Assembly: GCF_026008495.1 (NCBI RefSeq)
Contig: NZ_BQUN01000005.1
Coordinates: 1 to 64,000, forward strand
Source of the DNA: Streptomyces sp. A012304
GTDB lineage: Bacteria > Actinomycetota > Actinomycetes > Streptomycetales > Streptomycetaceae
Direction of reading: 5' to 3'
DNA length: 64,000 bases
The notes under the pieces were generated by a model, which was given only the letters and a program-made list of their open reading frames with translations, had not been told where the DNA came from and ran no database searches. Each line of letters starts with the position of its first letter. Position 1 is the first letter of the stretch. Positions 14,811 to 37,483 of the stretch are shown one piece after another. Both the position numbers and the translations under genes were made by a program.

Positions 14811-14995
14811 GCACCTCGGCGACCGCTCCCACGCTCATCTCGTGGAGTGTCCGGCGCACGACCGCGACGGTCGGGGCGCCGGATCGTCACGGGCGCCGGA
14901 TGTCGGCCCGGCCCGCTCCTGCCATTCCCAATTTCTGGAACACGTTCTACGGTGTGCGCCGTCAGGACACCGGCCTTGGGAAGCCAGGAGGCGCC

Positions 14996-16174
14996 GTGCA
15001 CCTCGACCAGACCCCCGAGCAGCAGCGGCTGCGCAGCGAACTGCGCGCCTACTTCGCCGAGTTGGTGCCGGACAACGCCTACGCCCGGCACACCGACCCG
15101 GTCGCCGCCAAACGCTTCTACCGCGCGACCATCCGCCGGCTCGGCGCGGACGGCTGGCTCGGCGTCGGCTGGCCGAAGGAGTACGGCGGGCGCGGCCTCA
15201 CCCCCGTCGAGCAGTTCGTCTTCTTCGACGAGGCCGCCCAGGCCGGCGTGCCGCTGCCGCTGATGGCCCTCAACACGGTCGGCCCGACGATCATGCGCTA
15301 CGGCACCGACGAGCAGAAGGCGTACTTCCTGCCGCGGATCCTCTCCGGCGAGATCGACTTCGCCATCGGCTACAGCGAACCCGACGCGGGCACCGACCTC
15401 GCCGCGCTGAGGACACGGGCCGTGCGGGAGGGGGACGAGTACGTCGTCAACGGCCAGAAGATCTGGACCACCAACGGCGACACCGCCGACTGGGTCTGGC
15501 TCGCCGTGCGGACCGACCCCGACGCACCGCCGCACAAAGGCATCAGCATGCTGCTCGTCCCGACCACCGACCCCGGCTACTCCTGCACTGTCATCCGCAC
15601 CCTGGCCTCCCACGACACCACGGCCAGCTACTACGAGGACGTCCGCGTCCCCGTCTCCCGCCGCGTCGGCGCCGAGAACGAGGGCTGGCGGCTGATCACC
15701 AACCAGCTCAACCACGAACGCGTCACCCTCGCCGCCCACGGCACCATGGCGATCCGCGCCCTGCACGACGTGCAGCGCTGGGCGACGGAGACCAAACTCG
15801 CCGACGGCCGGCGCGTCGTCGACCTGCCCTGGGTACGCCGCCGGCTCGCCCAGACCCACGTGAGGCTCGACGCGCTCAAACTTCTCAACTGGCAGATGGT
15901 GGGCGCCCTCCAGGACGGCACCCTCACCCCGCAGGACGCCTCCGCCGTCAAGGTCTACGGCTCCGAGGCGCGCCGCGAGGCCTACGCCTGGCTGCTGGAG
16001 GTCGTCGCGGCCCCGGGCGCCCTCCAGGAGGGCTCGGCCGGCGCCGTCCTCCACGGCGACCTCGAACGCGGCTACCGCTCCGCCGTGATCTTCACCTTCG
16101 GCGGCGGCAACAACGAGATCCAGCGGGAGATCATCTCCTGGATCGGGCTGGGGATGCCACGCGTACGACGCTAG
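14996..16174 (+). CDS. Acyl-CoA dehydrogenase family protein
   Basis: A 392-residue FAD enzyme of the acyl-CoA dehydrogenase family, which introduces an alpha-beta double bond in acyl-CoA thioesters. Visible motifs include WPKEYGGRGLTPVEQFVF near 59-76, IGYSEPDAGTDLAALRTRAV near 123-142, WTTNGDTADW and the C-terminal FTFGGGNNEIQREIISWIGL. It is most like the long-chain or sterol-type (FadE) group. The GTG start has AGGAGG upstream at 14986-14991. It stands alone and is not near the other lipid genes. Confidence 0.88.
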   Translation: MHLDQTPEQQRLRSELRAYFAELVPDNAYARHTDPVAAKRFYRATIRRLGADGWLGVGWPKEYGGRGLTPVEQFVFFDEAAQAGVPLPLMALNTVGPTIMRYGTDEQKAYFLPRILSGEIDFAIGYSEPDAGTDLAALRTRAVREGDEYVVNGQKIWTTNGDTADWVWLAVRTDPDAPPHKGISMLLVPTTDPGYSCTVIRTLASHDTTASYYEDVRVPVSRRVGAENEGWRLITNQLNHERVTLAAHGTMAIRALHDVQRWATETKLADGRRVVDLPWVRRRLAQTHVRLDALKLLNWQMVGALQDGTLTPQDASAVKVYGSEARREAYAWLLEVVAAPGALQEGSAGAVLHGDLERGYRSAVIFTFGGGNNEIQREIISWIGLGMPRVRR

Positions 16175-23429: not shown

Positions 23430-23451
23430 AATCTGACGGAGCATCAGAAAA
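23430..23451. promoter_or_regulatory. Putative operator, copy B (AATCTGAC-N6-TCAGAAAA)
   Basis: An imperfect palindrome (TCTGA and TCAGA arms) lies 39 bases before the nitronate monooxygenase ATG. It has the same 8+6+8 layout and identical outer arms as the site at 33349-33370. The type resembles TetR-family operators. No TetR gene is present in the window. Confidence 0.6.
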
Positions 23452-23490: not shown

Positions 23491-24600
23491 ATGCAGACGG
23501 AGCTGAGCAACCTCCTGGGAGTCGAGCACGCCGTCTTCGGCTTCACGCCGTTCCCTGCCGTCGCCGCGGCCATCAGCCGCGCGGGCGGCTTCGGCGTGCT
23601 CGGCGCGGTCCGCTACACCGCCCCCGACGACCTCAAACGCGACCTCGACTGGATCGACGCCCACGTCGACGGCCGGCCGTACGGGCTGGACGTCGTCATG
23701 CCCGCGAAAAAGGTCGAGGGCGTCACCGAGGCGGACGTCGAGGCGATGATCCCCGCCGGGCACCGGCAGTTCGTGCGCGACACCCTCGCCAAGTACGGCG
23801 TACCGGAACTGGCCGAGGGCGAGGCCTCCGGGTGGCGCATCACCGGCTGGATGGAGCAGGTCGCCCGCAGCCAGCTCGACGTCGCCTTCGACCACCCCAT
23901 CCGGCTGCTCGCCAACGCCCTCGGCTCCCCGCCCGCCGACATCGTGGCCCGCGCCCACGAGCGGGGCGTCCTGGTCGCCGCGCTCGCGGGCAGCGCCCGG
24001 CACGCGCTCAAACACAAGGAGGCGGGCATCGACATCGTCGTGGCGCAGGGCTACGAGGCCGGCGGACACACCGGCGAGATCGCCTCCATGGTGCTCACTC
24101 CCGAGGTCGTCGACGCCGTCGCCCCGCTGCCCGTGCTGGCGGCCGGCGGCATCGGCAGCGGACGGCAGATCGCCGCCGCCCTCGCGCTCGGCGCCCAGGG
24201 CGTCTGGTTGGGTTCCCTCTGGCTGACCACCGCCGAGGCCGACCTGCACTCGCCCGCCCTGACCCGCAAGCTCCTCGCGGCCGGCTCCGGCGACACCGTC
24301 CGCTCCCGCGCCCTGACCGGGAAACCCGCACGCCAGCTCCGTACCGAATGGACCGACGCCTGGGACGACCCGCACGGACCCGGCACCCTCCCGATGCCCC
24401 TCCAGGGCCTGCTCGTCGCCGAGGCCGTCTCCCGCATCCAGAAGTACGAGGTCGACCCGCTGCTCGGCACACCCGTCGGCCAGATCGTCGGCCGGATGAA
24501 CGACGTCCGCAGCGTCCGGGCCGTCTTCGACGACCTCACCCGCGGCTTCGAGCGGGCCGTGGACCGCGTCAACCGCATCGCCGGAAGGAGCGGCCAGTGA
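23491..24600 (+). CDS. Nitronate monooxygenase-like FMN oxidoreductase
   Basis: A 369-residue TIM-barrel flavoprotein of the 2-nitropropane dioxygenase/nitronate monooxygenase family. Family hallmarks are the N-terminal GFTPFPAVAAAISRAGGFGV, the FMN/catalytic stretch VVAQGYEAGGHTGE (about 184-197) and PVLAAGGIGSGRQIAAALAL. Many actinobacterial paralogs sit beside lipid catabolism genes and may act on acyl-CoA or NAD(P)H rather than nitroalkanes. Its stop overlaps the start of an acyl-CoA ligase gene (GTGA), and the promoter carries operator copy B. A CATCCT -10-like element ends six bases before the ATG. Confidence 0.83.
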   Translation: MQTELSNLLGVEHAVFGFTPFPAVAAAISRAGGFGVLGAVRYTAPDDLKRDLDWIDAHVDGRPYGLDVVMPAKKVEGVTEADVEAMIPAGHRQFVRDTLAKYGVPELAEGEASGWRITGWMEQVARSQLDVAFDHPIRLLANALGSPPADIVARAHERGVLVAALAGSARHALKHKEAGIDIVVAQGYEAGGHTGEIASMVLTPEVVDAVAPLPVLAAGGIGSGRQIAAALALGAQGVWLGSLWLTTAEADLHSPALTRKLLAAGSGDTVRSRALTGKPARQLRTEWTDAWDDPHGPGTLPMPLQGLLVAEAVSRIQKYEVDPLLGTPVGQIVGRMNDVRSVRAVFDDLTRGFERAVDRVNRIAGRSGQ

Positions 24601-26150
24601 CCAGCACACCCCCCACCGGCTTCTGGAGCCAGGCCACCGCCGACCCCGACCGCGTCGTCCTCGTCGCCCCGGACGGCGAGGAATGGACCGCCGGCCGCCT
24701 GCACGCCGCCGCCAACCGCCTCGTGCACGGGCTGCGCGCGGCCGGCCTCGCACGCGGCGACGCCTTCGCCGTCGTCCTGCCCAACTCGGCCGAGTTCTTC
24801 ACCGCCCACCTGGCCGCCACCCAGGCCGGCTTCTACCTCGTCCCCGTCAACCACCACCTCGTCGGCCCCGAGATCGCCTGGATCGTCTCCGACTCCGGCG
24901 CCAAGGTGCTCATCGCGCACGAGCGGTACGGCGACGCCGCCCGTCGTGCCGCCGACGAGGCCGGCCTGCCCGCCGGCCGGCGGTACGCCGTCGGCCGGGT
25001 CGAGGGCTTCCGCCCGTACGCCGAACTCCTCGACGGGCAGCCCGCGTCGGCACCCGCCGACCGCACCCTCGGCTGGGTCATGAACTACACCTCGGGCACC
25101 ACGGGCCGCCCGCGCGGCATCCGCCGCCCGCTGCCCGGCAAGCCGCCGGAGGAGGCCTACCTCGGCGGCTTCCTCGGCATCTTCGGTATCCGGCCGTTCG
25201 ACGACAACGTCCATCTGGTCTGCTCGCCGCTCTACCACACGGCCGTCCTCCAGTTCGCGGGCGCGTCCCTGCACATCGGGCACCGCCTGGTCCTGATGGA
25301 CAAGTGGACGCCCGAGGAGATGCTCCGCCTCATCGACGCCCACCGCTGCACCCACACCCATATGGTCCCGACCCAGTTCCACCGCCTGCTCGCCCTGCCG
25401 GAGCCGGTCAGACGGGCCTACGACGTCTCCTCCATGCGGCACGCCATCCACGGTGCCGCGCCCTGCCCCGACCACGTCAAACGGGCGATGATCGACTGGT
25501 GGGGCGACTGCGTGGAGGAGTACTACGCGGCCAGCGAGGGCGGCGGGGCCTTCGCCACCGCCGAGGACTGGCTGAAGAAGCCCGGTACGGTCGGCAAGGC
25601 CTGGCCCATCAGCGAACTCGCCGTCTTCGACGACGACGGCCACCGCCTGCCGCCCGGTGAACTCGGCACCGTGTACATGAGGATGACGACGGGCGGCTTC
25701 AGCTACTACAAGGACGAGGCCAAGACCCGCAAGAACCGCATCGGTGACTTCTTCACCGTCGGCGACCTCGGCCACCTGGACGAGGACGGCTACCTCTTCC
25801 TGCGCGACCGCAAGATCGACCTGATCATCTCCGGCGGCGTCAACATCTATCCGGCCGAGATCGAGTCGGCGCTGCTCGCCCACCCGGCCGTCGCCGACGC
25901 CGCCGCCTTCGGCATCCCGCACGACGACTGGGGCGAGGAGGTCAAGGCCGTCGTCGAGCCGGCCCCGGGCCACGCGCCCGGCGCCGGCCTCGCCGCCGAC
26001 CTCCTCGCCCACTGTGCCGACCGCCTCGCCGGCTACAAGCGGCCGCGGAGCATCGACTTCGTCACCGAGATGCCCCGCGACCCCAACGGCAAGCTGTACA
26101 AACGGCGGCTGCGGGAGCCGTACTGGGAGGGCCGCACCCGGCCGCTGTGA
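24597..26150 (+). CDS. Acyl-CoA synthetase (AMP-dependent ligase)
   Basis: A 517-residue ANL-superfamily enzyme that activates a carboxylic acid to acyl-CoA through an acyl adenylate. Motifs include the P-loop-like YTSGTTGRPRGIRR (about 163-176), YYAASEGGG, GDLGHLDEDGYLFLRDRKID (about 390-410) and the C-terminal catalytic Lys in PNGKLYKRRL (about 500). It is most similar to FadD-type ligases for long or branched substrates. It overlaps the monooxygenase stop by four bases, so it is co-expressed with it under operator copy B. Confidence 0.9.
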   Translation: MTSTPPTGFWSQATADPDRVVLVAPDGEEWTAGRLHAAANRLVHGLRAAGLARGDAFAVVLPNSAEFFTAHLAATQAGFYLVPVNHHLVGPEIAWIVSDSGAKVLIAHERYGDAARRAADEAGLPAGRRYAVGRVEGFRPYAELLDGQPASAPADRTLGWVMNYTSGTTGRPRGIRRPLPGKPPEEAYLGGFLGIFGIRPFDDNVHLVCSPLYHTAVLQFAGASLHIGHRLVLMDKWTPEEMLRLIDAHRCTHTHMVPTQFHRLLALPEPVRRAYDVSSMRHAIHGAAPCPDHVKRAMIDWWGDCVEEYYAASEGGGAFATAEDWLKKPGTVGKAWPISELAVFDDDGHRLPPGELGTVYMRMTTGGFSYYKDEAKTRKNRIGDFFTVGDLGHLDEDGYLFLRDRKIDLIISGGVNIYPAEIESALLAHPAVADAAAFGIPHDDWGEEVKAVVEPAPGHAPGAGLAADLLAHCADRLAGYKRPRSIDFVTEMPRDPNGKLYKRRLREPYWEGRTRPL

Positions 26151-31631: not shown

Positions 31632-33257
31632 TCACCCGCGGGGCGTGAGGCCGGCGTCGGCCGCCGCCACCTCCCGCGCCCACCGGTAGTCCGCCTTCCC
31701 GCTCGGCGAGCGGCGGACGGCCTCCGTGATCACCAGCCGACGGGGGATCTTGTACCCGGCGAGACGGGTGCGGCAGTGGGCCTGGATGTCCGCGAGGGAG
31801 GGGCGCGGCACTCCCGTGCGCAGCTGGACCACGGCGGCCACCTGGCTGCCCCACCTCGCGTCCGGCACTCCCGCCACCAGGGCGTCGTACACGTCCGGAT
31901 GCGACTTCAGGGCCTGCTCGACCTCCTCCGGGTACACCTTCTCGCCACCGGTGTTGATGCACTGCGAACCGCGGCCGAGCACGACGACCACGCCGTCCTC
32001 GTCGACCGTGGCCATGTCGCCGAGCAGCACCCAGCGCTCGCCGTCCTTCTCGAAGAACGTCTCCGCCGTCTTCGCGGGGTCGTTGTAGTAGCCGAGGGGG
32101 ACGTGCCCGCGCTGGGCGACCCGGCCCATCTCGCCCGCCGCGACCGGCTCGTGGGTCACCGGGTCGACCACCCGGGTACGGGAGTTGACGCGGATTCGGA
32201 AGCCGCGTTCGGGACCGGCGTCGTCCGTCGCCGTGCCGTTGAAGCCGGACTCGGAGGAGCCGAAGTTGTTCAGCAGCATCGCGTTCGGCACGAGCGCCCG
32301 GAACTGCTCGCGGACCGTGTCGGACATGATCGCCCCGGACGAGGAGACGCTGAAGAGGGACGAGCAGTCCGTGCCCTTCATCGGGCCCTCCAGCGCGTCG
32401 ATCAGCGGCCGCAGCATGGCGTCACCCACCAGGGAGACGGCGCTGACCCGCTCCTTCGCCACCGTCCGCAGCACCTCCTCCGGTACGAACTTGCGGTGAA
32501 TCACAACCCGTTGGCCGAAGTTGAAGCCGATGAACGCCGTCAGCGTGGAGGTGCCGTGCATCAGCGGGGCGGTGGGGAAGAAGGTGATCCCCGACCCGCC
32601 GGCCGCCACCCGCTCGGCCACCTCCTGCGGCTTCCGCACCGGCTCACCGGTCGGCGCGCCACCGCCCAGACCGGCGAAGAACAGGTCCTCCTGACGCCAC
32701 ATCACACCCTTGGGCAGGCCGGTCGTCCCACCCGTGTAGATGATGAACTGGTCGTCCCCCGACCGTGCCGGGAACCCCCGCTCCGGTGACCCGCCCGCCT
32801 CGGCCTCCGTGAAGCCGACGGCCGCGACCTGCTCCGCCCCCGCCCCCACCCGGATCAGCCGGCGCAGCGCCGGGGCCTGCGGCACGGCCGCCGCCACCCG
32901 GTCCGCGAACTCCGCCTCGAAGACCAGGGCCACCAGGTCGGCGTCCCGGTAGAGGTACACCAACTCCTCTTCGACGTACCGGTAGTTGACGTTCACCGGC
33001 ACGATCCGCGCCTTCAGGCAGCCCAGCACCGTCTGGAGGTACTCGACCCCGTTGTAGAGATGGAGCCCGACGTGCTCGCCGGGGCGGACGCCGCTGTCCA
33101 GGAGATGATGACCGATGCGGTTGGCCGCCGCGTCCAGTTCCGCGTACGTCAGCCGGCGCTCCGCACCCGTCCCCGGGTGGTCGACGTACACCAGCGCCTC
33201 ACGGTCCGGCACCACGTCGACGACCGACTCGAACAGGTCGGCAAGGTTGTACTCCAC
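31632..33257 (-). CDS. Acyl-CoA synthetase, FadD-like
   Basis: A 541-residue ANL ligase resembling actinobacterial FadD enzymes of sterol side-chain and long-chain acid activation (FadD19/FadD17 type). Motifs are YTGGTTGLPKGVMWRQEDL near 174-192, NNFGSSESGFNG near 332, WVLLGDMATVDEDGVVVVLGRG near 410 and SPSGKADYRWARE near the end. The GTG start is preceded by AGGAGG. It is divergent from the crotonase, DUF35, thiolase operon, with operator copy A in the shared promoter region, so the ligase probably supplies the CoA ester that the operon shortens. Confidence 0.88.
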   Translation of the reverse strand: MEYNLADLFESVVDVVPDREALVYVDHPGTGAERRLTYAELDAAANRIGHHLLDSGVRPGEHVGLHLYNGVEYLQTVLGCLKARIVPVNVNYRYVEEELVYLYRDADLVALVFEAEFADRVAAAVPQAPALRRLIRVGAGAEQVAAVGFTEAEAGGSPERGFPARSGDDQFIIYTGGTTGLPKGVMWRQEDLFFAGLGGGAPTGEPVRKPQEVAERVAAGGSGITFFPTAPLMHGTSTLTAFIGFNFGQRVVIHRKFVPEEVLRTVAKERVSAVSLVGDAMLRPLIDALEGPMKGTDCSSLFSVSSSGAIMSDTVREQFRALVPNAMLLNNFGSSESGFNGTATDDAGPERGFRIRVNSRTRVVDPVTHEPVAAGEMGRVAQRGHVPLGYYNDPAKTAETFFEKDGERWVLLGDMATVDEDGVVVVLGRGSQCINTGGEKVYPEEVEQALKSHPDVYDALVAGVPDARWGSQVAAVVQLRTGVPRPSLADIQAHCRTRLAGYKIPRRLVITEAVRRSPSGKADYRWAREVAAADAGLTPRG

Positions 33258-33348: not shown

Positions 33349-33370
33349 AATCTGACTATGTGTCAGAAAA
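33349..33370. promoter_or_regulatory. Putative operator, copy A (AATCTGAC-N6-TCAGAAAA)
   Basis: TCTGAC-TATGT-GTCAGA is a perfect 6-bp inverted repeat inside a 22-base block, 91 bases from the ligase start and 62 from the crotonase start. It shares both 8-base arms and spacing with the site at 23430. A further half-site-like TCTGTCAGA lies at 33411-33419. Confidence 0.65.
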
Positions 33371-33432
33371 CCCTTGAAGTGCCTCCCGCCCTCCTGCAAC
33401 CTGTTCTCGTTCTGTCAGAGGGGAGATGGGTG

Positions 33433-34233
33433 ATGGGCGGTACGGAACACCTCACCGTGCGGCGCGAAGGCGCCACACTCGTGCTCACGCTCAACCGGCC
33501 CGAGGCGAAGAACGCGCTCTCGCTCGCCATGCTCGTCGGCCTGTACGACGGCTGGATCGAGGCCGACGAGGACGACTCGGTCCGCTCGATCGTGTTCACC
33601 GGCGCGGGCGGCACGTTCTGCGCCGGCATGGACCTCAAGGCCCTCGCCGGGAAAGGCATGGAAGGCGAGCAGTACCGCCACCGGCTCAAGGCCGACCCCG
33701 ACCTGCACTGGAAGGCGATGCTGCGCCACCACCGCCCCCGCAAGCCGGTGATCGCCGCCGTCGAGGGCCACTGCGTGGCGGGCGGCACCGAGATGCTCCA
33801 GGGCACCGACATCCGCGTCGCCGGCGAGTCCGCCACCTTCGGGCTCTTCGAGGTGCGCCGCGGCCTGTTCCCGATCGGCGGCTCCACCGTTCGCCTGCCC
33901 CGCCAGATCCCGCGCACCCACGCCCTGGAGATGCTGCTCACCGGCCGCCCCTACAGCGCGCGGGAGGCCGCCGCCGTCGGTCTGATCGGACACGTCGTCC
34001 CGGACGGCACCGCCCTGGAGACGGCCCTGGAGATCGCCGAACGGATCAACTCCTGTGCCCCGCTCGCCGTCGAGGCCGTCAAGGCGTCGGTGTACGAGAC
34101 CGCCGGGATGACCGAGACCGACGGCCTCGCCGCCGAACTCACCCGCGGATGGCCCATCTTCGACACGGCCGACGCCAAGGAGGGCGCCCGCGCCTTCGCC
34201 GAGAAACGCCCGCCCGTCTACAAGCGGGCCTAG
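33433..34233 (+). CDS. Crotonase / enoyl-CoA hydratase family protein
   Basis: A 266-residue crotonase-fold protein. Visible are LTLNRPEAKNALSLAMLVGL (about 18-37), the oxyanion-hole segment FTGAGGTFCAGMDLKALAG (about 55-73) and KPVIAAVEGHCVAGGTEML (about 103-121). Residues matching the two catalytic Glu of classical hydratases are not clear in the expected places, so it may be an isomerase or another crotonase activity. A GTG three bases earlier is an alternative start. It is the first gene of the operon under operator copy A. Confidence 0.85.
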   Translation: MGGTEHLTVRREGATLVLTLNRPEAKNALSLAMLVGLYDGWIEADEDDSVRSIVFTGAGGTFCAGMDLKALAGKGMEGEQYRHRLKADPDLHWKAMLRHHRPRKPVIAAVEGHCVAGGTEMLQGTDIRVAGESATFGLFEVRRGLFPIGGSTVRLPRQIPRTHALEMLLTGRPYSAREAAAVGLIGHVVPDGTALETALEIAERINSCAPLAVEAVKASVYETAGMTETDGLAAELTRGWPIFDTADAKEGARAFAEKRPPVYKRA

Positions 34234-34258: not shown

Positions 34259-34340
34259 AGCCCCCTGAGCGAGGGAGTCACCGTGCCTGACGTCCTCCGA
34301 GCCCCCTGAGCGAGGGAGTCACCGTGCCCCACGTCCTCAA
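34259..34340 (+). repeat. 41-base tandem duplication covering ribosome site and start codon
   Basis: AGCCCCCTGAGCGAGGGAGT and the following bases (including CACCGTGCC and ACGTCCTC) occur twice with period 41 (34259-34299 and 34300-34340). Each copy has GAGGGAG and a GTG start. The first GTG (34283) opens an 8-codon frame MPDVLRAP that stops at 34307-34309. The second GTG (34324) starts the DUF35 gene with MPHVLKAP. Confidence 0.85.
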
Positions 34341-35274
34341 AGCCCCCCTGGTCGTCCAGTTCCCCTTCACCCGGTCGCTCGGACCCGTGCAGAGCGCCTT
34401 CCTCACCGGCCTGCGCGAGCGCGTCGTCCTCGGCGTGCGGGCCACCGACAGCCGCGTCCTCGTCCCGCCCGTCGAGTACGACCCCGTCACCGCCGAAGAG
34501 CTCCGCGACCTCGTCGAGGTGGCCCCCACCGGCACCGTCACCACCTGGGCCTGGAACCACGCCCCCCGCCGCGGCCAGCCCCTCGACACACCCTTCGCCT
34601 GGGTCCTGGTCCGCCTCGACGGCGCCGACACCGCCCTCCTGCACGCCCTCGACGCCCCCGGCCCCGACGCCGTGCGCACCGGGATGCGGGTCCGCGTCCG
34701 CTGGGCGCGGGAGCCCTCCGGCGCCATCACGGACATCGCCTGCTTCGAGCCGTACGACGGTGATCCGGTCCACGTCGCGGGCTCCTCCGGCGAGTTCGAG
34801 GAGCCGGTCGGCGGCATCGTCGCCGAGGCGCGCCTCGACTACACCTACTCACCCGGCCGCGCCCAGAGCGCCTACATCGACGCCCTCGCCGAACACCGGA
34901 TCGTCGGCGAGCGCTGCCCCTCCTGCCGCAAGGTGTACGTGCCGCCGAGGGGCGCGTGCCCCACCTGCGGCGTCGCCACCGCCGAACAGGTGGAAGTGGG
35001 CCCGCGCGGCACGGTCACCACGTTCTGCATCGTCAACATCAAGGCCTCTCATACGGCGAACGCGGACATCGAGGTGCCCTACGTCTACGCCCACATCGCC
35101 CTCGACGGCGCCGACCTCGCGCTGCACGGCCGCATCGGCGGCATCCCCTACGACCAGGTGCGCATGGGCCTCAGGGTCGAGCCGGTGTGGACGCGAGGAG
35201 CCCGTCACCCCGACCACTACCGGCCGACCGGCGAACCCGACGCGCAGTACGACACCTACAAGGAGCTGCTGTGA
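34324..35274 (+). CDS. Tandem DUF35 OB-fold / zinc-ribbon protein
   Basis: A 316-residue protein with two DUF35 units. The first (about 15-150) has an OB-fold (GTVTTWAWNHA near 70-80) but no zinc-ribbon cysteines. The second (about 180-310) has a full ribbon C198-P-S-C201 and C212-P-T-C215, then its OB-fold (GTVTTFCIVNI). DUF35 proteins bind acyl-CoA and partner thiolase-fold enzymes, such as ChsH2 with the Ltp2 retro-aldolase in cholesterol degradation. The next gene starts on its stop codon (GTGA), which fits a complex with the two thiolase-like proteins. Confidence 0.85.
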   Translation: MPHVLKAPLVVQFPFTRSLGPVQSAFLTGLRERVVLGVRATDSRVLVPPVEYDPVTAEELRDLVEVAPTGTVTTWAWNHAPRRGQPLDTPFAWVLVRLDGADTALLHALDAPGPDAVRTGMRVRVRWAREPSGAITDIACFEPYDGDPVHVAGSSGEFEEPVGGIVAEARLDYTYSPGRAQSAYIDALAEHRIVGERCPSCRKVYVPPRGACPTCGVATAEQVEVGPRGTVTTFCIVNIKASHTANADIEVPYVYAHIALDGADLALHGRIGGIPYDQVRMGLRVEPVWTRGARHPDHYRPTGEPDAQYDTYKELL

Positions 35275-36320
35275 CGCGTGACATCGCGGTCGTCGCCTTC
35301 GCCCAGTCCGCCACCCTGCGCACCACCGAGGAACTCTCCGAGGTGGAGATGCTCATGCCGGTCCTGCACGAGGTCCTGGACCGCACCGGCCTGAAGACCG
35401 CGGACATCGGCTTCACCTGCTCCGGCTCCAGCGACTACCTCGCCGGCCGCGCCTTCTCCTTCACCCTCGCCCTCGACGGCGTCGGCGCCTGGCCGCCCAT
35501 CTCCGAGTCCCACGTCGAGATGGACGGCGCGTGGGCCCTGTACGAGGCCTGGACCAAACTGCTCACCGGCGACGCCGACACCGCGCTCGTCTACTCCTAC
35601 GGCAAGTCCTCACCCGGTTCGCTGCGCGACGTCCTCACCCGCCAGCTCGACCCGTACTACGTCGCCCCCCTGTGGCCCGACTCCGTCGCCCTCGCCGCCC
35701 TCCAGGCCCAGGCGCTGATCGACGCGGGCGCCACCGACGAACCCGCCCTCGCCGCGATCGGCGCCCGCAGCCGACGCGCCGCGACCCTCAACCCCCACGC
35801 CCAGCTGCGCGGTCCCACACCCCACGGCGACTACGTCGTACGGCCCTTGCGGACCGGTGACTGCCCGCCCGTCGGCGACGGCGCCGCCGCCGTGATCCTC
35901 GCCGCGGGGGAGCGGGCCCGCGAGCTGTGCTCCCGCCCCGCCTGGATCCGCGGCATCGACCACCGCGTCGAGGCCCACGCCCTCGGCGTGCGCGACCTGA
36001 CCGACTCGCCCTCCACCCGCCTCGCCGCCGAGAACGCCGGCGCCTTCCAACGACCGGTCGACACCGCCGAGTTGCACGCCCCCTTCACCTCCCAGGAGGT
36101 CGTCCTGCGCAAGGCGCTGCGGCTCGACGACAGCGTGCGCGTGAACCTCTCCGGCGGTGCCCTCGCCGCCAACCCGATGATGGCCGCCGGCCTCGTCCGC
36201 GTCGGCGAGGCCGCCGCCCGCGTCCACCGGGGCGACTCCGACCGCGCCCTGGCCCACGCCACGTCCGGCCCGTGCCTGCAACAGAACCTGGTCGCCGTAC
36301 TCGAAGGGGATCCGCGATGA
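35271..36320 (+). CDS. Thiolase-fold protein 1 (lipid-transfer-protein-like)
   Basis: A 349-residue thiolase-fold protein. The C-terminal half keeps family features (GDGAAAVILAAGERA near 201-215, LHAPFTSQEVVLRKAL, and VNLSGGALAANPMMAAGLVR near 289-308). At the position where thiolases have the nucleophilic Cys in an N-C-x-S-G context, this protein reads HVEMDGAWALYEA, so no Cys is present. Loss of that Cys is seen in Ltp2-type retro-aldolases. It overlaps the genes on both sides (GTGA and ATGA), which indicates coupled synthesis of a complex. Confidence 0.83.
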   Translation: MTRDIAVVAFAQSATLRTTEELSEVEMLMPVLHEVLDRTGLKTADIGFTCSGSSDYLAGRAFSFTLALDGVGAWPPISESHVEMDGAWALYEAWTKLLTGDADTALVYSYGKSSPGSLRDVLTRQLDPYYVAPLWPDSVALAALQAQALIDAGATDEPALAAIGARSRRAATLNPHAQLRGPTPHGDYVVRPLRTGDCPPVGDGAAAVILAAGERARELCSRPAWIRGIDHRVEAHALGVRDLTDSPSTRLAAENAGAFQRPVDTAELHAPFTSQEVVLRKALRLDDSVRVNLSGGALAANPMMAAGLVRVGEAAARVHRGDSDRALAHATSGPCLQQNLVAVLEGDPR

Positions 36321-37483
36321 GCAAGGAGCCCGTGGCCGTCGTGGGCATCGGCCAGACCAAGCACGTCGCCGCCCGGCGGGACGTCTCGATCGCCGGACTG
36401 GTCCGGGAGGCCGCCCGACGCGCCCTCGACGACGCCGAGTTGACCTGGGCCGACATCGACGCCGTCGTCATCGGCAAGGCACCCGACTTCTTCGAGGGCG
36501 TCATGATGCCCGAGCTGTACCTCGCCGACGCCCTCGGCGCCGTCGGCAAACCCATGCTGCGCGTGCACACCGCCGGGTCGGTCGGCGGCTCCACCGCACT
36601 GGTCGCCGCCAACCTGGTCGCCGCCCGCGTCCACGCCACCGTCCTCACCCTGGCCTTCGAGAAGCAGTCCGAGTCCAACGCCATGTGGGGCCTGTCCCTG
36701 CCGATCCCCTTCCAGCAGCCCCTGCTGGCCGGCGCGGGCGGCTTCTTCGCGCCGCACGTGCGCGCCTACATGCGGCGCAGCGGCGCCCCCGACACGGTCG
36801 GTTCGCTCGTCGCCTACAAGGACCGCCGCAACGCGCTGAAGAACCCCTGGGCCCACCTCCACGAGCACGACATCACCCTGGAGAAGGTGCAGGCCTCGCC
36901 CATGCTCTGGGACCCGATCCGCTACTCCGAGACCTGCCCCTCCTCCGACGGCGCCTGCGCGATGGTCCTCACCGACCGCGCCGGAGCGGCCCGCTCCCCG
37001 CGCCCGCCCGCCTGGATGCTCGGCGGCGCGATGCGCAGCGAACCGACCCTGTTCGCCGGGAAGGACTTCGTGTCGCCGCAGGCCGGCAAGGACTGCGCGG
37101 CCGACGTGTACCGCCAGGCCGGGATCTCCGAACCGCGCCGGGACATCGACGCCGCCGAGATCTACGTGCCGTTCTCCTGGTACGAACCCATGTGGCTGGA
37201 GAACCTCGGCTTCGCCGACGAGGGCGAGGGCTGGAAACTCACCGAGGCAGGCGTCACCGAACTCGACGGCGACCTGCCCGTCAACATGTCGGGCGGCGTG
37301 CTCTCCACCAACCCCATCGGCGCCTCCGGCATGATCCGCTTCGCCGAAGCGGCCCTCCAGGTGCGCGGACAGGCCGGGGAACACCAGGTGGACGGCGCCC
37401 GCAGGGTCCTCGGACACGCCTACGGCGGCGGCTCCCAGTTCTTCTCCATGTGGCTCGTCGGCGCGCAACCCCCGGACAGCTGA
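36317..37483 (+). CDS. Thiolase-fold protein 2 (acetyl-CoA acetyltransferase-like)
   Basis: A 388-residue thiolase-fold protein beginning PVAVVGIGQTKHVAARRDVS. The usual nucleophile region reads RVHTAGSVGGSTALVAANLV (about 77-96) with no Cys. The C-terminal NMSGGVLSTNPIGASGMIRF and GHAYGGGSQFFSMW keep the thiolase superfamily pattern, and a His precedes the Gly run. It therefore may not be a true thiolase. The last gene of the operon; the ATG overlaps the previous stop. No terminator is evident directly after it. Confidence 0.83.
   Translation: MSKEPVAVVGIGQTKHVAARRDVSIAGLVREAARRALDDAELTWADIDAVVIGKAPDFFEGVMMPELYLADALGAVGKPMLRVHTAGSVGGSTALVAANLVAARVHATVLTLAFEKQSESNAMWGLSLPIPFQQPLLAGAGGFFAPHVRAYMRRSGAPDTVGSLVAYKDRRNALKNPWAHLHEHDITLEKVQASPMLWDPIRYSETCPSSDGACAMVLTDRAGAARSPRPPAWMLGGAMRSEPTLFAGKDFVSPQAGKDCAADVYRQAGISEPRRDIDAAEIYVPFSWYEPMWLENLGFADEGEGWKLTEAGVTELDGDLPVNMSGGVLSTNPIGASGMIRFAEAALQVRGQAGEHQVDGARRVLGHAYGGGSQFFSMWLVGAQPPDS

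Follow-up and report, generated by a model that had tools for sequence, protein, structure and literature searches.

The 64,000-nucleotide stretch of DNA analyzed here (contig NZ_BQUN01000005.1, positions 1 to 64,000 of the forward strand; hereafter the window) is from Streptomyces sp. A012304, whose genome measures 9.66 Mb. At its middle lie three consecutive forward-strand genes. The first (positions 34324 to 35274) encodes a tandem DUF35 protein of 316 residues, an Rv3521-type partner of Ltp3 and Ltp4, in which an OB-only unit 1 is followed by a zinc-ribbon OB unit 2. The second (35271 to 36320) encodes an Ltp4-type thiolase-fold protein of 349 residues in which Glu83 replaces the nucleophilic Cys, and the third (36317 to 37483) an Ltp3-type thiolase-fold protein of 388 residues with Gly87 at the Cys position and an invariant Tyr283 in the motif YVPF. 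All three frames are open and both junctions overlap by 4 bp (GTGA and ATGA), as described in an earlier prediction made from the letters of this stretch (the original prediction). We propose that the Ltp3-type protein is the catalytic subunit of a retro-aldolase for C24-branched sterol side chains, and that the Ltp4-type protein is its non-catalytic partner.

Two further genes diverge from a single 175-bp region directly upstream of the triad: a FadD19-type acyl-coenzyme A (CoA) ligase on the reverse strand (31632 to 33257) and an EchA19-type enoyl-CoA hydratase on the forward strand (33433 to 34233). All four enzyme-like proteins are above the cut-off of an NCBIfam model: the Ltp4-type protein with PRK07937 (564 bits, cut-off 419), the Ltp3-type protein with PRK08313 (716 bits, cut-off 514), the ligase with PRK07798 (742.5 bits, cut-off 543), and the hydratase with the equivalog PRK07799 (414.6 bits, cut-off 316); the hydratase is slightly below the cut-off of the EchA19 model (370.6 bits, cut-off 400). 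From gene order, we take PRK07937 to be Ltp4 and PRK08313 to be Ltp3. Passages of PMC6429209 give ltp4 as Rv3522 and ltp3 as Rv3523, adjoining Rv3521. Judged by NCBIfam models, the window proteins appear to belong to the same families as the Rv3523/Rv3522/Rv3521 set of the KstR regulon and ltp3/ltp4 of Rhodococcus rhodochrous. The gene order DUF35-ltp4-ltp3 and the fadD19/echA19 partners are also those of the Nocardia and Tsukamurella relatives. Unlike in the Rv3521-3523 and Rhodococcus systems, the five Streptomyces genes form a compact module with another palindrome in its promoter, and the window's genome gave no KshA or HsaC orthologue.

Among the 80 closest named loci, 79 of them from Streptomyces, DUF35, ltp4, and ltp3 occur together in every one, and the whole FadD19-EchA-DUF35-Ltp4-Ltp3 module is present in 77; in the other 3, the available stretch begins too close to the triad to judge. 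A wider set of 43 rows, representing 41 distinct loci (L027 duplicates L141, and L031 duplicates L183), has the three genes together throughout; its rows were chosen by their Ltp4 match, and therefore a lone Ltp3 would escape detection. With 80 of 80 and 43 of 43, the association is not due to chance. In Nocardia farcinica, a FadD19-like and an EchA-like gene again diverge from each other, at a distance of about 5 kb from the triad, with a CYP125-type cytochrome P450 and a steroid thiolase following. Both Tsukamurella and Nocardia have a P450 gene and a steroid thiolase gene no more than about 9 kb away from the triad. Plasmid 4 of Tsukamurella tyrosinosolvens (L119) carries the triad with an annotated steroid 3-ketoacyl-CoA thiolase gene, a P450 gene, and CoA-transferase genes, and at a locus from another family (L179) a gene resembling CYP125 by eye ends directly 5' of the first DUF35 gene.

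The module or the triad is plasmid-borne in two genera, namely in Streptomyces clavuligerus (L122) and on the T. tyrosinosolvens plasmid. Two genomes (G107 and G031) have a second, diverged copy of the triad (L168 and L169, respectively) with Ltp4 at about 50%, Ltp3 at about 57%, and the DUF35 genes split; they may represent paralogues that act on a different substrate. In three genomes, an in-frame stop falls within the Ltp4 match (L184, L187, and L148), which may reflect match edges, frameshifts, or sequencing errors.

The thiolase nucleophile corresponds to Gly87 in Ltp3 when that protein is aligned with zebrafish SCP2 thiolase or 7yvy, and to Glu83 in Ltp4 when that protein is aligned with 7yvy. 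Both residues are invariant (41 of 41 Ltp3 rows and 43 of 43 Ltp4 rows), and the original claim that the two proteins lack the nucleophilic Cys held up in this check. When the two families were compared as profiles, Glu83 paired with Ser88 of Ltp3, offset by one residue from the alignments. The second mark of SCP2-type thiolases, the His of HPxG, is replaced by Asn332 in all 41 Ltp3 rows. According to passages of PMC12329534, the catalytic base of Ltp2 is the Tyr of YDHF, the aldolase Sal has a Tyr-Cys pair in YDCY together with a Gly at the Cys position, and SCP-2 thiolases have a His at the first position of HDCF. The features of the Ltp2/ChsH2 aldolase, a missing nucleophilic Cys and a Tyr at the start of YDHF, recur in Ltp3, whose YVPF motif has Tyr283 and Pro285 in 41 of 41 rows each. 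The matching place in the window's Ltp4 reads HAPF, and its residue 269 varies (His in 31, Gln in 5, Ser in 5, Asn in 1, and Tyr in 1 of the 43 rows). Other positions of Ltp4 do not vary, namely Ser80 (35 of 35, A3) and His81, Glu83, and Asp85 (43 of 43). Because the Tyr that serves as base in Ltp2 has an invariant counterpart in Ltp3 but not in Ltp4, we predict that Ltp3 is probably the catalytic subunit and that Ltp4 is probably not catalytic.

A model of Ltp4 has a thiolase fold spanning residues 2 to 348 (predicted local distance difference test [pLDDT], 87.4; predicted template modeling score [pTM], 0.90). Its best structural match is 6esq_A (Z 42.8, root mean square deviation [rmsd] 2.2 over 339), and it also matches 9myr_A (Z 36.2, rmsd 2.8 over 335) and 6ok1_C (Z 35.8, rmsd 2.8 over 328).

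Two OB units (PF01796, in two stretches) were recognized in the DUF35 protein, along with one zinc-ribbon match, zf-ChsH2 at residues 186 to 217 in unit 2; there is no Cys in the first 139 residues of the protein. This agrees with the tandem arrangement and single ribbon first read from the translation, although the ribbon is not universal among homologues. Four zinc Cys residues are present in 12 of 33 fused homologues, three in 11, and none in 10, and therefore zinc is not essential to the family. In the AlphaFold2 model (pLDDT, 92.6; pTM, 0.65), a similar strand-helix-strand order occurs twice, and the top structural match is 6ok1_B, the DUF35 chain of the Ltp2-ChsH2 aldolase. In 10 of the 43 rows, which represent 9 distinct loci in as many genomes, the two units are encoded by separate adjacent genes. 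The loci with a split pair, L141, L147, L168, L169, and L175 to L179, come from several lineages; in two cases inspected closely, the first gene encodes an OB unit alone, in about 145 residues, and the second a zinc-ribbon protein 168 to 180 residues long. Two DUF35 units accompany two co-located thiolase-fold proteins, which fits an arrangement in which one unit would serve each subunit of an Ltp3-Ltp4 pair, and a heteromeric Ltp3-Ltp4-DUF35 complex is likely.

Assemblies of known structure resemble the predicted complex in part. The Ltp2-ChsH2 aldolase (6ok1) shares a Cys-less thiolase fold, a DUF35 protein, and the Tyr at the YDHF/YVPF position, but it has one thiolase-fold protein and a DUF35 fused to MaoC, whereas here there are two thiolase-fold proteins, a DUF35-DUF35 fusion, and a YVPF motif without His. 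The archaeal thiolase/3-hydroxy-3-methylglutaryl (HMG)-CoA synthase/DUF35 complex (6esq), which provides the best fold match of Ltp4, we take to be composed of two different thiolase-superfamily proteins with DUF35; presumably each of these is active as an enzyme, and there is one DUF35 unit and not a pair. The PhlABC acyltransferase (5m3k) is likewise multi-component and combines a thiolase-fold subunit with the DUF35-type subunit PhlB, but its reaction is acyl transfer and its DUF35 is single. Sal-Shy (9myr) is a thiolase-fold retro-aldolase with DUF35 that has Gly at the Cys position (passages of PMC12329534), as in Ltp3, but it differs in its Tyr-Cys pair (YDCY) and homodimeric core.

The remainder of the host genome bears on the substrate. 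A KstR-like regulator (C12:102949) is closest to KstR structures (148.7 bits), followed by an unnamed TetR protein (3bjb, 145.3 bits) and then by a match of 42.7 bits, and an exact KstR motif lies upstream of its gene. The genome's own P450 is nearest to CYP125 structures (518.7 bits, compared to 301.5 for CYP124), its FadA5 scores 681 bits (steroid thiolase cut-off, 515), and its Ltp2 scores 660 bits with PRK07855 (cut-off 469); adjoining Ltp2 is a MaoC-DUF35 gene that by eye is of the ChsH2 type. There are also relatives (51 to 57%) of what we take to be an Hsd4A-type short-chain dehydrogenase/reductase (SDR) and a MaoC hydratase. At C97:170-179 kb lies a cluster whose genes are related (63 to 69%) to Nocardia and Tsukamurella genes of the type used for HIP, the steroid C/D-ring intermediate, presumably FadE30, FadA6, IpdC, and EchA20; the IpdA query was verified against 6co6. 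Taken together, the KstR-like regulator, CYP125, FadA5, Ltp2 with its ChsH2-like gene, and the HIP-ring cluster indicate a sterol as the most likely substrate. The original prediction had raised the possibility of a variant for another branched acid or isoprenoid; that part is not supported, the proteins falling into the existing Ltp3 and Ltp4 families with FadD19- and EchA19-type partners in a genome with sterol genes.

The same association was seen across the genus. In a sample of 28 Streptomyces genomes including the host, 18 Ltp4-positive and 10 Ltp4-negative, Ltp2, CYP125, and IpdA are each present in 18 of 18 positive and 0 of 10 negative genomes. KstD was found in 10 of the 18 and in none of the negatives, nor in the host genome; KshA, in 1 of 18 and 0 of 10, by a query that found it in 7 of 9 comparison genomes; and HsaC at a level of at least 50%, in 1 of 18. 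Since Ltp4, Ltp2, CYP125, and IpdA are present and KshA and mostly HsaC were not found, both ends of the pathway are marked, and its known middle is missing to the extent that it was tested. Two Ltp4-bearing genomes from another family (G055 and G232) likewise gave no KshA match. Published passages report a Streptomyces CYP125 that hydroxylates cholesterol in vitro (PMC9728343), and HIP metabolism by Streptomyces rubescens is the subject of work cited in PMC5380842, as its passages indicate.

Candidate regulatory sites may connect the module to these genes. The fadD19/echA19 promoter has a KstR-like site, TGCAACCTGTTCTC (33395 to 33408, forward), with one mismatch to TnnAACnnGTTnnA; its AACCTGTT is conserved in 77 of 78 such promoters. 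An exact KstR-type site, TGGAACACGTTCTA (14936 to 14949), lies directly upstream of a forward-strand gene for an acyl-CoA dehydrogenase (14963 to 16174, start codon not fixed) that has no NCBIfam model above cut-off and is 53% to a Nocardia farcinica homologue that we take to be FadE26. Of 15 scanned records, three (L119, L142, and L143) have an exact KstR motif directly 5' of the gene for DUF35, and passages of PMC1995591 place the motif likewise at the Rv3520c/Rv3521 site. Genome-wide, there are 28 exact KstR-type sites, compared to 11 in the control; among 11 with examined surroundings, 4 precede sterol-type genes (the FadE26-like gene, a MaoC operon, the KstR-like gene, and an acyl-CoA dehydrogenase).

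The bidirectional promoter also contains a palindrome, TCTGAC-N5-GTCAGA (33351 to 33367), which we propose as a candidate operator joining the module and the sterol genes. Its arms are fixed and its center is variable: the full form is present in 74 of 78 loci and CTGAC-N5-GTCAG in 78 of 78. With 0 or 1 mismatch, the host genome has 37 sites, compared to 2 for a reversed-pattern control, and the exact counts are 9 and 0. Sites precede the ChsH2-type gene beside Ltp2 (C102:79682), an operon of MaoC, alcohol dehydrogenase, and SDR genes (C12:85819), and an F420-type oxidoreductase (C12:94742), and another (C12:115687) lies in the interval that separates the CYP125 and FadA5 matches; some of the 37 are inside or distant from sterol-type genes (C136, C187, C208, C35, C197, and C1). 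When three mismatches were allowed, the window showed no enrichment (19 found, 22.5 expected). The 18 Ltp4-positive Streptomyces have 106 exact sites (1 to 10 each) and the 10 negatives have 3, a density of 0.66 compared to 0.044 per Mb (Mann-Whitney p about 1e-5, a guide only, given the relatedness and unequal sizes of the genomes); the reversed-pattern control gave 3 exact sites in all 28. The site lists are complete for 10 positive genomes; 8 of these have an exact site no more than 5 kb from Ltp4, and 8 have one that close to Ltp2. G013, from another family, has 10 exact palindromes, two of them on its ltp4 contig. SAV151 of Streptomyces avermitilis has a listed site of TCTGAC-N10-GTCAGA (passages of PMC10933834); the half-sites are identical, but the spacing differs, and the palindrome is for that reason not equated with the SAV151 site.

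Thirteen palindrome sites lie in a 96-kb stretch (C68:176-272 kb) of a dispersed catabolic cluster (C68:166000-281230; L188 to L192 and L131). This cluster encodes a second Ltp2-type protein (PRK07855, 575 bits, cut-off 469), two amidohydrolases (Amidohydro_2), and, judged by eye, a protein like flavin-containing monooxygenases (FMO); near the sites are also genes for a flavin reductase, acyl-CoA dehydrogenases, a luciferase-like monooxygenase, SDRs, and ligases. C68 proteins were rejected as simple HsaB or IpdE2 orthologues, since they do not reach the curated thresholds (195 of 230 and 206 of 450 bits, respectively). A TetR gene within the cluster was considered as the palindrome's regulator, and its presence gives no support for that role because all 28 Streptomyces have this gene, whether or not they carry the module. 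Of the window's other genes, the palindrome recurs with one mismatch (23432 to 23448) upstream of a forward-strand pair: a nitronate-monooxygenase-like gene (23491 to 24573), whose product is 58% to a Tsukamurella protein near the ltp3/ltp4 locus there, and an acyl-CoA ligase gene (24618 to 26123), whose product is 59% to a Nocardia ligase near the corresponding locus and has no NCBIfam model above cut-off.

We give a probability of about 70% to the reading that the three genes encode an Ltp3/Ltp4/tandem-DUF35 retro-aldolase for C24-branched sterol side chains. Its basis is gene content, family membership, the missing thiolase Cys, family-wide conservation, and co-occurrence with sterol genes. 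FadD19 would make the side-chain CoA ester, as the original prediction supposed for the FadD-like ligase, in line with family membership, synteny, and the published genetics of fadD19 in the passages available. The FadE26-like dehydrogenase and then the EchA19-type hydratase, presumably in that order, would yield the beta-hydroxyacyl-CoA, which the Ltp3-Ltp4-DUF35 assembly would cleave by a retro-aldol reaction and not by thiolysis. Tyr283 of YVPF may act as the base of a catalytic Ltp3, equivalent to the Tyr of YDHF in Ltp2; Ltp4 would be a non-catalytic partner, and DUF35 units 1 and 2 would each serve one thiolase-fold subunit. The core of the original prediction, a retro-aldol reaction in which Cys-less thiolase-fold proteins and DUF35 cleave a CoA ester, is well supported by family membership, synteny, and published ltp3/ltp4 genetics. 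It is not new: other actinobacteria have such a set under KstR control, serving the C24-branched side chains of plant or fungal sterols, and passages of PMC6273163 and PMC8708139 call Ltp3 and Ltp4 aldol lyases for such sterols. The new inferences are the division of labor between Ltp3 and Ltp4, drawn from the invariant Tyr, and the occurrence of the DUF35 units as separate genes in other lineages.

Several observations weigh against this reading. The His of YDHF, an oxyanion residue, is absent from Ltp3, where Pro285 is invariant, and Ltp3 appears to be without the second catalytic Tyr of Ltp2. The His frequent at Ltp4 residue 269 is also what SCP-2 thiolases have in HDCF (passages of PMC12329534), so that Ltp4 may have a catalytic role. 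The KstR site of the fadD19/echA promoter is imperfect in the window, and the full motif is found in 11 of 78 loci; the KstR-like regulator has KstR as its sole NCBIfam match, at 204 bits, below the cut-off of 280. With verified queries, the host genome yielded no KshA at an E value of 1e-40 or better and no HsaC orthologue (best HsaC-like protein, 45%; HsaA and HsaD were not searched genome-wide), and for lack of these two orthologues complete sterol degradation is not established. The HsaC-like genes (45% and 40%) were rejected as ring-cleavage orthologues: the examined stretches of the host's own genome have no HsaA homologue of at least 40%, HsaD lying outside the query set. No assay of any triad enzyme was found in the literature searched. 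Among the literature matches listed, only PMC10398937 combines Ltp3, Ltp4, and DUF35, and its passages describe no complex of the three.

The absence of ring A/B enzymes invites the view that the chemistry is as proposed but that the Streptomyces module has been recruited to another isoprenoid or branched acid. The scarcity of KshA and HsaC among Ltp4-positive genomes speaks for it, as do the finding of KstD in 10 of those 18 and not in the host and a survey in which the steroid pathway was absent from 55 of 57 Streptomyces genomes (passages of PMC4810484); we nevertheless consider it unlikely, since CYP125, Ltp2, and IpdA segregate completely with Ltp4, the host P450 is nearest to CYP125 structures, and a Streptomyces CYP125 acts on cholesterol in vitro. 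A different doubt concerns the assembly. Ltp3 and Ltp4 might each form a homodimer with a reaction of its own, the two enzymes having nothing but the DUF35 scaffold in common, on the pattern of the archaeal thiolase/HMG-CoA synthase complex. The fold match of Ltp4 to the thiolase of that complex (6esq_A) and the His at residue 269 in 31 rows agree with this, but 12 of the 43 rows have a different residue there, all 43 have Glu at the Cys position, and the three genes stay together in every row of the Ltp4-chosen set; separate enzymes are thus improbable. That either protein is a true thiolase with a relocated nucleophile is hardly credible. Cys207 of Ltp3 is invariant (41 of 41 rows), but it aligns with the Cys beside the SDG/TDG motif that is also present in Ltp2, and Asn332 stands in place of the HPxG His throughout.

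The sterol side-chain reading gives a testable division of labor, with a catalytic Ltp3, a partner Ltp4, and one DUF35 unit for each; no description of an Ltp3/Ltp4/DUF35 aldolase complex or its mechanism was found in the literature searched. For the genus, 18 of 28 sampled Streptomyces carry side-chain and C/D-ring markers, mostly without the tested A/B-ring enzymes, whereas the earlier survey, in its available passages, had 55 of 57 without a steroid pathway (PMC4810484). Either unknown enzymes perform the middle steps or the substrates differ. We tentatively suggest, at somewhat less than even odds, that many Streptomyces possess a sterol regulon undescribed in the literature searched, with the operator TCTGAC-N5-GTCAGA beside KstR sites. 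It would join Ltp3/Ltp4/DUF35, Ltp2/ChsH2, and CYP125/FadA5 with the cluster of flavin-, luciferase-like, and FMO-type monooxygenases, amidohydrolases, and ligases, and rings A and B would be opened without KshA and HsaC ahead of the standard HIP (rings C/D) pathway. The more interesting leads are the proposed split of labor between Ltp3 and Ltp4, the candidate regulon of the palindrome, and the apparent lack of enzymes for rings A and B, and the predicted operator is a handle by which the missing genes may be collected.

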